Below are positions 15,764-39,626 of a stretch of DNA of 44,311 nucleotides, one piece after another. The stretch covers positions 1 through 44,311 of the forward strand of contig JAICQO010000057.1 in the NCBI GenBank assembly GCA_025937835.1, in the 5' to 3' direction. The stretch's first letter is position 1. Each line of letters begins with the position of its first letter. Origin of the DNA: Polyangiaceae bacterium (GTDB taxonomy: Bacteria; Myxococcota_A; Polyangia; Polyangiales; Polyangiaceae). The notes below the pieces were generated by a model that had not been told where the DNA came from, made no database searches, and saw nothing but the letters and a program-made list of their open reading frames with translations. The position numbers and the translations under genes are program-made.

Positions 15764-16821
15764 CGCAACAGATAGCCCCGCGCGCGCTCGCGGGCGAGCT
15801 CGGTCTCACCTGCGCGTGACCAGGCTTCTACCTCGCGCGCCAGGGCGTCTTCGGCCATCGCGCCCTTGGAGTCCAGGCGGCGCGCCGAGGCGAAGGCCTG
15901 AGCGGCTTCACGCGGCCGGCCCAGCTGATCCAACAGCGTCCGTCCGCGCGTGAACTCCGCGAGCGGCGCGCGCGCGTCGCGCGGGAAGCGCTTCACGAGG
16001 CGTTCGAGGAACGCCACTGCGCGATCGGGGCGCCCGCCGAGCCGCGCCGCGTCCGCGGCGAGCAGCAGCTCTTCGGGCAGATCGCGCACGGACTTCGGAC
16101 CTTCTCGATCGATCTCGGCCAGGGCCGCCGCATAGTTGCCGTCTTGCACGAGCGCCCGCCACGGCGAAACCGGTCGCGGTGTAGGCGCCGCAGGTGCAGC
16201 CGACGCAGGCGGCGATTCCGGCTCCGGCTCCGACGCCGGCTGTTCGACGGGGCGTACCTCCCTGAACTGCCCGGTCTCGCCGACCCCGAGCTCCCGATCG
16301 CCGAGCGGCGACGTCACGCGCACGCGACCGCGCTCGACGGAAACGGAGACGCGCTCCGCCTCGCGCGTGACGGTGAACACCGTCCCGAGCACCTGTACGG
16401 TCACGCTGCCCGCCAGCACGCGGAACACGCGCTGCGCGTTGGGGGTGACCGAAAAGCGAGCGCTACCGGAGTCGAGGCGCAGCGTGATCTCCTCGGCCGT
16501 CGACACGACCGGCTCGAGCCGCGCGTTCGCGGAGCGAGCCACCACCTCCGAGCCGTCGGCGAAGTGGATCAGCGGCTGCGGCGCCTGCGGAGCCGTGGTG
16601 GTTGCCACGGGCCGCTCCGGCTCGGACGACCAGCGCTGACCGACGAGCAGCACCACCAACGACACGACCGCGGCCAGCGCCACCACCAGCGCCCCGCGGC
16701 GGCGCCTCCGCGACAGCAGCGAGCGTTCGACGCGCGCGCGCACCCGGCGCTCGCGCTCGGGGGTCCAGCTCGGTTCGACCTGGCGCTTGAGCTCGGCGAG
16801 TCGGGAGACGATGTCAGCCAT
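15709..16821 (-). CDS. FecR-domain membrane protein with TPR-like tail (likely anti-sigma)
   Basis: A 370-residue inner-membrane protein. Basic cytoplasmic residues 1-42 precede a single membrane helix (about 43-62). A periplasmic FecR domain (about 85-200) includes the typical GSARFSVTPNAQRVFRVLAG and VQVLGTVFTV strings. A Pro/Ala-rich linker (about 210-245) and helical repeats like those of outer-membrane TPR proteins follow (about 250-365). Its ATG overlaps the stop of the ECF sigma gene (ATGGCTGA), so the two are coupled. FecR proteins commonly control a partner ECF sigma factor across the membrane, so an anti-sigma role is likely. The 3' end overlaps the adenine methylase gene antisense by 55 bases. 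Confidence 0.82.
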   Translation of the reverse strand: MADIVSRLAELKRQVEPSWTPERERRVRARVERSLLSRRRRRGALVVALAAVVSLVVLLVGQRWSSEPERPVATTTAPQAPQPLIHFADGSEVVARSANARLEPVVSTAEEITLRLDSGSARFSVTPNAQRVFRVLAGSVTVQVLGTVFTVTREAERVSVSVERGRVRVTSPLGDRELGVGETGQFREVRPVEQPASEPEPESPPASAAPAAPTPRPVSPWRALVQDGNYAAALAEIDREGPKSVRDLPEELLLAADAARLGGRPDRAVAFLERLVKRFPRDARAPLAEFTRGRTLLDQLGRPREAAQAFASARRLDSKGAMAEDALAREVEAWSRAGETELARERARGYLLRYPKGRRAAAVRRLGGVD

Positions 16822-35382: not shown

Positions 35383-35456
35383 GCGCCCGTAGCTCAGCTG
35401 GATAGAGCGGTGGATTTCTAATCCACTGGTCAGGGGTTCGAATCCCTTCGGGCGCG
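35383..35456 (+). tRNA. tRNA-Arg (anticodon TCT)
   Basis: A complete cloverleaf of 74 bases. The acceptor stem GCGCCCG (35383-35389) pairs with CGGGCGC (35449-35455), with discriminator G. The D-arm is AGCTCAGCTGGATAGAGC; the anticodon stem GTGGA/TCCAC encloses the loop TTTCTAA with anticodon TCT, which reads AGA/AGG arginine codons, rare in a genome this rich in GC. The T-arm GGGGTTCGAATCCC is canonical. CCA is not encoded. Confidence 0.97.
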
Positions 35457-35552
35457 CCCAGACAACCGCATCACGGCGCGGGTTCTCGCGGCGCGCCTAG
35501 GCATCCGCTTTGCGTCGCGACACGGCCGGGTGGCCTCGGCCCGGCGGGCCTC

Positions 35553-35656
35553 GGTACCTTATGTCTCAGCGGACTGAGTCGGAGGGCTCGGGATTCAGTG
35601 CAGTTGGAGCGGGCTCTGCGAGCCCGGTGCGAATCCCTCCGGGCGCGCTGAGTACC
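35553..35656. other. Strongly self-complementary element repeating the tRNA-Arg 3' end
   Basis: Nested perfect stems lie between tRNA-Arg and the HNH gene. CTCAGCG (35565) pairs with CGCTGAG (35646); CGGAGGG (35580) with CCCTCCG (35635); CGGGCTC (35610) with GAGCCCG (35620) over a TGC loop; and GGTA (35553) with TACC (35653). Bases 35630-35648 match the tRNA-Arg 3' end (35439-35457) at 18 of 19 positions. It does not fold as a cloverleaf, so it is not a normal second tRNA. It may be a tRNA-derived relic, an attachment-like site, a structured RNA, or the 3' hairpin of the HNH transcript, whose stop is 21 bases away. Confidence 0.55.
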
Positions 35657-35676
35657 GGAATCTGCGTTCGCGCGGG

Positions 35677-36840
35677 CTACTCGGGTGTGCGTGGCCGCCC
35701 CGCATCGTCTGGAACGTGAACGCCCCACGCCTCGTACGGGCGCGATTCGCGCGCGCGGGCAACGAAGTCACTTCCGAAATCTTCTTCGGCTGCGAGGGCG
35801 TTGTGGGCGCGGCAGCGCAGAGTGACGTTTTCGAGGTGATGCTCGCCGCCGAGGGCGAACGCTTTCAGGTGATGCAGCTCGAGCCACGCGGTCTCACGAC
35901 AGCGTTCTCCCGTTTCAGCCCTGTAAGTGCAGCGCCCGGTGTCGCGCTCGAAGACAGCGCGGCGGATTGCGGCGGGCACGTGTCTTCCGCGCTGGCGCGG
36001 AGCTGCGGGCGCCGGCTCGGTGTTCGTATCGGCAGCGGCCGAGCGCGGTCGGCCCGTGACGGCGTACTTCTCGCGCTCGAGCTCGGCAACCAGAGAGCGC
36101 ATCGCGCGCAGATGCAGCGCCGCGAGGCCGGCGCTGGGAGCAGCATGAGAGAGCAGCGCCTTCGCTTTCTCGACGAGCTGCACGTACTCGTCGCCCGCCT
36201 CGAACTGTACTCGGTACCGCTCAGGCTGGAACCGATCCGGCGCGACGGGGTCCAGTGCTGCTTCGGTCGCGTCGTTCGCCGGCGCACTCTCCGTTTCGTC
36301 CACCGGCTCCGTCCAGTCGCGCGGTCGCTCGCCCGGCTGCAGCTCGCGAACGGGATTCAGCGAGCTCACGAACTGATCCCAGGTCGGCGAAGGAGGCACG
36401 AGCTGCGAAGGCTCGGGGCCGAGGGGCTCGATGCGCGGCAGAACATGCGGCAGCGGATCGAGCTGCCGGACGAGGCGAGCGATTTCCTTCTTGGTCCGGT
36501 GCTTGGCACGAAGCAGAACTTCAGCCAGGTTCTCGGCCGTTAGGTGCGGGCCGAGCATCAGCAGGCCCGTGAGAGGGAATCGGCGCACGAGTCGCGCGGC
36601 GGAGACGCGCCGGAAGGCTTCGTCTTCGGAGAACCGAAGCTCGTAGATGCAATAGGTGTAGAGGCTCGCGCAGGCGCGGGTGCGGTGGATGCCGCGGGCT
36701 TCGACCTCACCGAGGTGCGCGAGCAAGCTCGCCAGGAGCTGGTTCGAGCGCCCGATGAGCCGTCGCGTCGCGGCGAGCAACTCGCCGTCGGAAAGCTCAG
36801 TGTGGAAGGAGGCTGGACCTACCGAATCGATAGCATTCAT
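35677..36840 (-). CDS. DUF222-like HNH endonuclease-domain protein
   Basis: A 387-residue protein with an N-terminal helical domain of the DUF222-like type (ELLAATRRLIGRSNQLLASL, GIHRTRACASLYTYCIYELR, SEDEAFRRVSAARLVRRFP). A variable acidic middle follows, then a C-terminal HNH nuclease domain: FERDTGRCTYR, LELHHLKAFALGGEHHLENV and LRCRAHN, with the HH/N catalytic residues present. Such genes are abundant in actinobacteria and some myxobacteria, where they behave like mobile or repeated units. Biological role unknown. ATG 36840 is taken over the upstream TTG 36849; neither has a clear ribosome site. Its 3' end abuts the self-complementary element beside tRNA-Arg. Confidence 0.82.
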   Translation of the reverse strand: MNAIDSVGPASFHTELSDGELLAATRRLIGRSNQLLASLLAHLGEVEARGIHRTRACASLYTYCIYELRFSEDEAFRRVSAARLVRRFPLTGLLMLGPHLTAENLAEVLLRAKHRTKKEIARLVRQLDPLPHVLPRIEPLGPEPSQLVPPSPTWDQFVSSLNPVRELQPGERPRDWTEPVDETESAPANDATEAALDPVAPDRFQPERYRVQFEAGDEYVQLVEKAKALLSHAAPSAGLAALHLRAMRSLVAELEREKYAVTGRPRSAAADTNTEPAPAAPRQRGRHVPAAIRRAVFERDTGRCTYRAETGERCRETAWLELHHLKAFALGGEHHLENVTLRCRAHNALAAEEDFGSDFVARARESRPYEAWGVHVPDDAGRPRTPE

Positions 36841-37099
36841 GCGACGCAATCTACACCTGCGATTTCAAGGCTCCGTATTCGAGCGCCCGCGCGCGATCGC
36901 AGCCACGAATGGCGGCGAAGTCGTTGTTTGATGCGAACGCTCCGAGAATCGGCGCATAGCGCGCGTGCTGGCCATGAGTTAACCGCGCGACGGAGAGTGC
37001 CGACGGCGCGCCCAGATCGCTGTCAAGAGCGGACTGCGAAATCGACTCGCGCTGCGGCTGTTCTAAAAGCGGAAGCAACTGGCTCTTGGAGCGGCCGAC

Positions 37100-38479
37100 G
37101 TGCCGCTGATGCGTTTGCTCTTCGACCACGGCACGTTGGTGCTCGCGGAAACACCGGATTGGCCGCTGGATTTCGTGCCGGGTTTGCTGTGGGACGAGCG
37201 GGTGGCGCTGTTCCGAGCGCCGGCCTGGCGCTATCCGGAGGTCGTCGCGGCGCTCTCGTCGCAAGCGCTGCCGCTGCGGGACGAGGTACGTCCGCCGGCT
37301 TCGCCAGTGCCCGGCCATTGGCGGCCGATCGAGCTGCGGCCTTATCAACAGGCTGCGGCGCTGTCTTGGGATCTCGCGCAGAAGCGCGGCCTCGTGGTGC
37401 TGCCGACGGGCAGCGGGAAGACGCGGGTGGCCCTATCGATCCTGGCTTCGACCGGAGCGCGGGCGTTGTGCCTGGTACCGACGCGCGTTCTGCTCGAGCA
37501 GTGGATGGCGGAGATCCGCGCCGTGTACCAGGGAGCCGTCGGGTGCCTCGGGGACGGCGAGCATCGGCTGGAAGCGGTGACCGTGGCGACGTTCGAGAGT
37601 GCCTATCGGCATATGCCGCGGATCGGTCGGGAGTTCGATCTGCTTGTGGTGGACGAGGTGCATCACTTCGGCGTGGGGGTTCGGGACGAGGCGCTGGAGA
37701 TGTCGATCGCGCCGTTTCGGCTGGGGCTCACGGCGACGCCGCCGGGCGCTGCGTCGCTCAGCCGGCTCGCGGAGCTCTTGGGGCCCGTGGTGTATCGGCT
37801 GGGCGTGGGGGATCTCGCGGGCAAGTGGCTCGCGGAGTTCGACCTGGCGGTGCTGCAGCTCGGGTTGACCGACGAGGAACGGCAGCGCTACGCCGCCGAC
37901 TACGGGCTGTTCTCCGAGTTCAACCGGCGCTTCCGGCGCTTCCATCCCGAGGGAAGCTGGCAAGAGTTCGTGGTCGCGGCGTCGCAGTCGCCGGAGGGCC
38001 GGGCGGCGCTCTCGGCGTGGCGCAGGACTCGGCGTCTGGTGGCCTTCACGCGCGGCAAGGCGCGCGCGGTACGGAAGCTCCTCGATCGCCACGCGGATGC
38101 CCGAGTGTTGATCTTCACCGCGGACAACGAGAGCGCCTATTCGATCGCGCGCGACAATCTGGTGATGCCGATCACCTGCGAGATCTCTCGCGCCGAACGG
38201 ACGCGAGCGCTCGACGCGTTTCGCGCGGGCGAAATCCGGGCGCTCGTGAGCGCACGCGTCCTGAACGAAGGGATCGACGTCCCGGATGCAGATGTGGCGA
38301 TCATCGTCGCGGGGACGCGCGGGGAACGCGAGCACGTGCAGCGCGTGGGCCGGCTGCTGCGGCCGTCCCCCGGAAAGCGCGCCGTGGTCTACGAGCTGGT
38401 GACGCTCGCCACGGGGGAGGCACGCCGGGCTCACGAAAGGAGGCGGGGCCTTGCAGCCGCGAACTTTGTTGGGGCTTAG
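37100..38479 (+). CDS. XPB-like superfamily 2 DNA helicase
   Basis: A 459-residue helicase. After an N-terminal domain of about 75 residues come ELRPYQQAAALSW (Q-like motif), Walker A VVLPTGSGKTRVAL (K107), Walker B VVDEVHHFG (185-191) and GLTATP. In the second RecA domain are RVLIFTADNE, VSARVLNEGIDVPDADVAI and QRVGRLLRPSPGK (arginine finger). The DEVHH box and the overall order are those of XPB/Ssl2 helicases in their compact prokaryotic form. GTG 37100 is preceded by GGAG at eight bases. It overlaps a Bax1-like gene, as in archaeal XPB-Bax1 pairs, which together open and cut damaged DNA. Confidence 0.9.
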   Translation: MPLMRLLFDHGTLVLAETPDWPLDFVPGLLWDERVALFRAPAWRYPEVVAALSSQALPLRDEVRPPASPVPGHWRPIELRPYQQAAALSWDLAQKRGLVVLPTGSGKTRVALSILASTGARALCLVPTRVLLEQWMAEIRAVYQGAVGCLGDGEHRLEAVTVATFESAYRHMPRIGREFDLLVVDEVHHFGVGVRDEALEMSIAPFRLGLTATPPGAASLSRLAELLGPVVYRLGVGDLAGKWLAEFDLAVLQLGLTDEERQRYAADYGLFSEFNRRFRRFHPEGSWQEFVVAASQSPEGRAALSAWRRTRRLVAFTRGKARAVRKLLDRHADARVLIFTADNESAYSIARDNLVMPITCEISRAERTRALDAFRAGEIRALVSARVLNEGIDVPDADVAIIVAGTRGEREHVQRVGRLLRPSPGKRAVVYELVTLATGEARRAHERRRGLAAANFVGA

Positions 38480-39626
38480 CAGCAGGACGGGGGACGCGAC
38501 CATCGTTCCGAATTACCTGACCGAGCGAGACCACCCCTGGTTGTGCGCCGCGCTCGACGAGCACGCTCGCTTCGTGGGCCAACGGCGCAGCGAGCTCCGC
38601 GCGCGGATGCGAGAGCCGCTCCCGACGCGGGCACCGAAAGGCAAGCTTCGCTTCGTCGCGACATTGCTGGAAACGCTCGGTACCGACCAGGCGGCGGCGC
38701 CCGTTCCACCTCGCGAGGCGCGCTGGGCAGCGTTTCGCGCGGCGACGGCGCGTCCCTTCGCTCGCGAAGCCGTGCTCGCCACAGCCGCCCGAGAGCTCGG
38801 GGTCGAGGCCGAAGCGCTCGAGGCTTCCCTGTTCGCAGATCTCGAGAGTGAACGTCGGGTGTCCCCCCTGCCGGACGATCTCACGCCGGAACGGCTCGCG
38901 CTGGAAGCAAATCTGATGCTGGTGCGCGCCTGGCTCCGGCGCGCGGTCCGCGTTCGTATCGCGGCCTGGGGCAACACGCGCGCGCTGATTCGCCAGGCGC
39001 AGCTCGCGGGTTTGCTCTGCGTCGTTCGAAGACAACCGCCCAGCGAGTCGCACGAGGGGATCGCGCTGGAGATTTCCGGCCCCTTCGCGTTGTTTCGACA
39101 CACGGAGCTGTACGGCCGCGCGCTGTCGGCGCTGGTTCCGCGCGCCGCGTGGTGCGATCGGTTCGAGCTGGTCGCCGAGTGCGCGCTCGGTCGCGGTCCC
39201 GAGACCGCAAAGCTCCTGGTCCGGTCAGGCGATCCGATCGCGGTCGCTCACGAGGTCACGAAGAACGGCCGTCGCCTGGAGTCGCGCTTCGAGCGAGATT
39301 TTCGACGTCGCGCGCCGGACTGGGACGTCGTTCGCGAACCCCGCGCGCTGGAGGCGGGTGGGACGCTGGTCTTTCCGGACTTCGAGCTCATTCACCGCCG
39401 CGAACCGGAGCGGCGCTGGCTGCTCGAAATCGCCGGCTTCTGGACGCCAGAGTACCTCGCGACCAAGCTCCAGCGCCTGCAGAGCGCGGGCATCGACCGA
39501 CTGGTGATCTGCATCGACGAGCGCCGGGGTTGTTCCGACTCGGGAATGCCGGATGGCGCCCGGATCGTGCGTTACAAGAACCGCATCGATCCCGAGCGCG
39601 TGCTCTCTATCCTGCGCTCCGGGTGA
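38451..39626 (+). CDS. Bax1/DUF790-family nuclease partner of XPB
   Basis: A 391-residue protein of the DUF790 family. In archaea its member Bax1 binds XPB helicase and cuts DNA near bubbles. Seen: NYLTERDHPWLCAALDEH at the front, the conserved LEANLMLVRAWLRRA helix and IALEISGPFALFRHTELYGRAL. The nuclease core is VFPDFELIHR (D310), LLEIAGFWTPEYL (E326) and a downstream K339, a PD-(D/E)xK-like set. The start is TTG 38451 behind GGAGG, inside the helicase gene by 29 bases in another frame, so the two are co-translated. The end of the protein (RYKNRIDPERVLSIL) is family-typical. Confidence 0.87.
   Translation: MQPRTLLGLSSRTGDATIVPNYLTERDHPWLCAALDEHARFVGQRRSELRARMREPLPTRAPKGKLRFVATLLETLGTDQAAAPVPPREARWAAFRAATARPFAREAVLATAARELGVEAEALEASLFADLESERRVSPLPDDLTPERLALEANLMLVRAWLRRAVRVRIAAWGNTRALIRQAQLAGLLCVVRRQPPSESHEGIALEISGPFALFRHTELYGRALSALVPRAAWCDRFELVAECALGRGPETAKLLVRSGDPIAVAHEVTKNGRRLESRFERDFRRRAPDWDVVREPRALEAGGTLVFPDFELIHRREPERRWLLEIAGFWTPEYLATKLQRLQSAGIDRLVICIDERRGCSDSGMPDGARIVRYKNRIDPERVLSILRSG

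Follow-up and report, generated by a model that had tools for sequence, protein, structure and literature searches.

Introduction

Displaced tDNA fragments have been reported to mark genomic islands integrated in tDNAs. In the Islander description, such islands are recognised by criteria of configuration, orientation and end-fragment, intervals are filtered to 2–200 kb, and the T-loop/T-stem appears as a known crossover region, the T/J site (PMC4383910). More generally, in a second study, tRNA gene-like remnants left by integration have been presented as an expected and pervasive feature of prokaryotic genomes (PMC9897764). The locus described below lies in a window of 44,311 nucleotides (the whole stretch of DNA that was analysed) from a Polyangiaceae bacterium, and it is another, fairly ordinary instance of this well-known kind. 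Compared with the Islander criteria, the locus has an intact tDNA and, downstream of it and in the same orientation, a cognate 3′ fragment that reaches the tRNA end and is non-coding, with a T/J-type crossover region; in contrast, the interval holds no integrase and, at <200 bp, is far under the 2-kb minimum. Similarly to the partial tRNA genes described in PMC9897764, a non-functional tRNA piece accompanies a complete gene of its own kind, whereas, unlike the genes described there, this piece has 23 bases only, is missed by ARAGORN and has no element left. A third term of comparison is given by the multi-copy HNH nuclease genes of the myxobacterial order: the gene adjacent to the fragment belongs to such a family, yet it is unlinked to the tRNA repeat. 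The locus would extend the record of tRNA-targeted integration by one small scar, in a group of myxobacteria that has been poorly sampled. Among the papers listed by literature searches, none deals with this tRNA-Arg locus or with the myxobacterial members of this HNH family.

The repeat at the tRNA-Arg gene

The proposed integration target is a complete tRNA-Arg gene with anticodon TCT at 35383–35458 of the plus strand (ARAGORN; Rfam RF00005, 70.7 bits). Its 3′ end (35435–35457, plus strand), which begins in the T-loop region, runs one base beyond the discriminator and stops one base short of the annotated gene end, recurs in the same orientation at 35626–35648, with 21 of 23 bases identical, 2 mismatches and an offset of 191. 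The 19-base match with one mismatch reported in the first-pass annotation (35439–35457 against 35630–35648) is correct, and the true repeat is slightly longer. Under a strict local scheme the repeat scores 17. Of 20,000 stretches of 218 nt simulated with an order-3 Markov model, none reached this value (the highest was 13), and 800 comparisons with tiles elsewhere in the window peaked at 11. In the draft genome (6.92 Mb, 227 contigs), the 17-mer core is found exactly in two places, nowhere at one mismatch and in ten places at two mismatches, and the reversed control pattern gives five matches with ≤2 mismatches. At the ten two-mismatch places ARAGORN detects no tRNA, although two of these loci have one elsewhere. 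In the loci compared, which contain 51 distinct tRNA genes, only this tRNA-Arg(TCT) has a flanking repeat of its 3′ 20-mer with ≤2 mismatches.

The second copy is a bare tRNA 3′ fragment in non-coding DNA. Its similarity to the tRNA gene ends in the T-loop/T-stem on the left and one base beyond the discriminator on the right. The 86 nt that precede it show no detectable trace of the remaining tRNA (515 of 5,000 simulations were equally good), and neither ARAGORN nor the Rfam tRNA model at permissive thresholds detects a tRNA there, the only weak Rfam match being to an unrelated lncRNA family (E 2.9). No terminator or promoter was found at the second copy by a simple scan, and there is no step in GC content at this point. 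The fragment has C at 35639, where the tRNA-Arg(TCT) gene has T at 35448, as do the congeners compared; thus, the fragment does not simply copy the present tRNA gene, and the difference suggests either that an element from another host brought in one of the two ends or that the scar has acquired a mutation. The C at this variable T-stem position is common to G009, G020, G034 and G092, none of them a congener.

Between both copies, a spacer of 167 bp (35459–35625) is the proposed residue of a lost element. Open frames of ≥25 residues number 12 in this region; no Pfam match was found in the four overlapping frames tested, nor any PHROG match in the two frames tested, and no Rfam family matches the spacer. 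No real counterpart of it exists in 97 genomes, where the best matches are short. Of five loci checked for matching at the second copy, four have a tRNA-Arg at that very point. Repeats of the attP arm type are limited to two imperfect pairs, which are not informative.

A putative integration scar

The reading that we prefer, with a probability of about 0.63, is that the second copy is a displaced tRNA 3′ fragment, an attR-like scar of an integrative element whose interior was lost later. A tyrosine-integrase element would have inserted into tRNA-Arg(TCT) at its T-loop/acceptor part; the attP of the element would have carried a matching tRNA 3′ end, by which the tRNA gene would have been restored, and the other 3′ end would have been pushed beyond the element's far end. 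An internal deletion may later have removed the integrase and the cargo, which would leave the intact tRNA, a non-coding residue of about 170 bp and the 23-bp fragment at 35626–35648. Integrase, element and deletion alike are inferred from this anatomy and from a further fragment that one congener has at this tRNA. After clean attL × attR excision by tyrosine recombinases, a single att site is left, and an internal deletion fits better than such excision because the second copy remains. The first-pass annotation had proposed a remnant or the edge of an excised island; the part that invokes a remnant of integration at the tRNA 3′ end is the best supported, short of proof, whereas the excision is disfavoured by the retained copy. 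No integrase family matches the spacer frames tested, and none was found on the contig, the seven PF00589 matches of the genome being all on other contigs. When the right junction was sought with ≤3 mismatches in 183 genomes of the order, it was found in one, the genome under study, so that neither an empty nor a filled version is available from relatives. In the relatives' loci compared, the neighbours of the tRNA-Arg are not syntenic and there is no empty site. Exact searches with 22 bases of the second copy gave no match in viral contigs.

The congener that bears on this reading is G003, in which the same tRNA-Arg is present on two contigs, C5 and C32. On C32, a detached 5′ fragment of tRNA-Arg(TCT) (bases 1–41, 95%) precedes the intact gene by 15 kb (1593–1632 against 16658–16732 of locus L076), and just downstream of the intact gene there is a weak integrase relic (PHROG E 3.9e-4; Pfam 0.021, below the cut-off), which matches an integrase locus of the genome under study in tblastn (E 4.5e-4). 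The fragment and the relic together support, without proving it, the use of tRNA-Arg(TCT) as an integration target in the genus, and the 3′ fragment here and the 5′ fragment in G003 jointly suggest this tRNA as a target in the group. No intact integrase is encoded on C5 or C32, all 13 integrase matches of G003 being elsewhere. A candidate integrase relic 5′ of the C5 tRNA was rejected, as it has no Pfam or PHROG match and its sole tblastn match to the integrase loci of the genome under study (E 0.009) is low-complexity sequence outside the candidate stretch.

Duplication and foreign origin as alternatives

The alternative that survives best, although we consider it unlikely, is that slippage or unequal recombination produced a partial tandem duplication or a second tRNA gene, of which all but the last 23 bases have decayed. 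A clear case of such an event is known from G016, a member of the same family, where an exact block of 65 bp, which starts 9 bases inside the tRNA-Arg 3′ end and includes a hairpin-like stretch, is repeated 110 bp downstream (L040, contig C322); ordinary tandem duplication therefore also yields partial tRNA repeats in this group. However, the G016 block runs well past the tRNA, whereas here the similarity stops one base past the discriminator. A decayed gene is further disfavoured by the lack of any detectable remainder in the 86 nt mentioned above, and nothing would preserve the 3′ end alone of a dead tRNA gene.

Somewhat less probable still is that the second copy is a foreign tRNA-Arg 3′ end brought in with other DNA, either as the att edge of a rightward island or by an illegitimate join, in which case the HNH gene and the helicase–nuclease pair beyond it could be on acquired DNA. 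In favour of this are the C at the T-stem position, shared with the four non-congeners named above, and the match of the second copy plus 4 further bases to the tRNA-Arg(TCT) 3′ end of G092, from another family of the order (96% over 27 bases, the best of 97 genomes); yet the extra match consists of 4 bases only and is the best of so many genomes. The distribution of the helicase–nuclease pair is also in line with a foreign origin. In the window, an XPB-like helicase gene adjoins a DUF790/Bax1-type nuclease gene (37100–39626), and the best relatives of the helicase gene are patchy, with >60% identity in G033, G005 and G006 and only ~40% paralogues in G001–G004 and G007. Pairs of XPB and a Bax1-type nuclease are known from archaea. 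Against a foreign origin, the genome holds no third copy with ≤1 mismatch that could mark a larger island, and the GC content shows no step at the second copy. The helicase–nuclease pair was also considered as a fixed neighbour of the tRNA, an idea that was dropped: it recurs in six relatives (G033, G005, G006, G020, G030 and G016), where the stretches compared lack this HNH gene.

The neighbouring HNH gene

Beyond the second copy, an HNH-family nuclease gene is encoded on the minus strand at 35677–36849 (ATG at 36840, with an upstream TTG at 36849). It was assigned by PHROG HNH families (best E 3.7e-8), its match in Pfam being weak (E 0.077). Its stop codon faces the second copy at 28 bp, in agreement with the distance given in the first-pass annotation, in which the gene and the repeat were taken together as a possible very small homing element. 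The family is multi-copy in some relatives, and identical segments of 124 bp stand at contig ends of G003, but apart from this, proximity is the only thing that joins gene and repeat. The gene lies on the minus strand beyond the second copy, so that the repeats do not bracket it; what they bracket is about 170 bp of non-coding DNA. The paralogues of the same genome are also against such an element: those on contigs C186 and C22 align to the window from 35723–35724 to 36975 or 37031, i.e., the open reading frame plus ~130–180 bp upstream, and the matches of those on C123 and C66 (the latter a fragment) fall inside the span 35723–~37031. Both the tRNA-Arg and the second copy are outside this unit of paralogy. 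Moreover, none of 43 other HNH-family loci has the repeat (≤3 mismatches) or a tRNA (ARAGORN) in flanks of ~1.5 kb or up to the contig end; these loci, some of which are pieces of one gene, come from the genome under study, G003, G006, G007, other relatives and one named metagenome-assembled genome, for which 4 kb was sought. The search for the repeat beside other copies, which the first-pass annotation had itself put forward as a check, thus goes against its proposal, a lack of the element at those copies being one of the outcomes that it had named as refuting, and a homing element that combines the HNH gene with the tRNA-derived repeat is highly improbable, being refuted by the comparison of paralogues. 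The HNH genes are a repeated gene family in their own right, unlinked to the tRNA repeat, and the adjacent gene can be separated from the tRNA story.

Less probable alternatives

A structured or tRNA-like RNA that requires a T-arm-like 3′ end has been considered as well, given that nested complementary segments can be seen by eye around the second copy (CGGAGGG/CCCTCCG and CGGGCTC/GAGCCCG). This explanation is very doubtful: the folding energy of 35540–35670 is no better than that of shuffled sequences on either strand (z −0.11 and −0.65), no Rfam family is matched, and the 5′ strand of the T-stem is missing before the second copy. A second tRNA, a tRNA-like RNA or a known RNA family at this point was rejected or found to be unsupported by ARAGORN, Rfam, folding and simulations. 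Equally far-fetched would be a reading of the 191-bp unit itself as a minimal integrase-less satellite, with two tRNA-derived att sites and little beyond attP arms, mobilised in trans by an integrase from another locus, the tRNA-Arg being a repeated target in the genus. Finally, chance resemblance, which a GC-rich genome and a short string might favour, is scarcely credible in view of the simulations, none of which reached the score, and of only two exact core copies in 6.9 Mb, 191 bp apart.

Other features of the HNH family

Several observations concern the HNH family itself. Members are found in 13 of 97 relatives at E 1e-20, with 20 matches in G003 and 12 in G046. A single-sequence structure model of the protein had a mean pLDDT of 38.9 and was discarded, and no convincing structural relative was found among solved structures (best E 0.53). 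In the longer stretch examined around the C22 copy, a tRNA-Arg(CCT) lies ~8 kb off and was taken as unrelated. The upstream stretch common to the paralogues (36850–37031 of the window, and C22, C186 and C123) has a CTTGACA near its outer edge, although a consensus promoter scan of this stretch gave no match. In the family alignment, simple repeats (SASAGT, GSGS; loci L064 and L061) abound in the linker that joins the conserved N-terminal region to the HNH domain, and L064 has an HDQ repeat in place of the expected HNH domain, in a stretch perhaps cut by the contig end. In G003, four HNH loci (L070–L073, on contigs C72, C5, C20 and C63) are situated at contig ends, and exactly 124 identical bases are common to the four contigs, as if near-identical copies had broken the assembly. 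These contig-end copies suggest that the N-terminal region of the HNH genes spread recently or underwent gene conversion.
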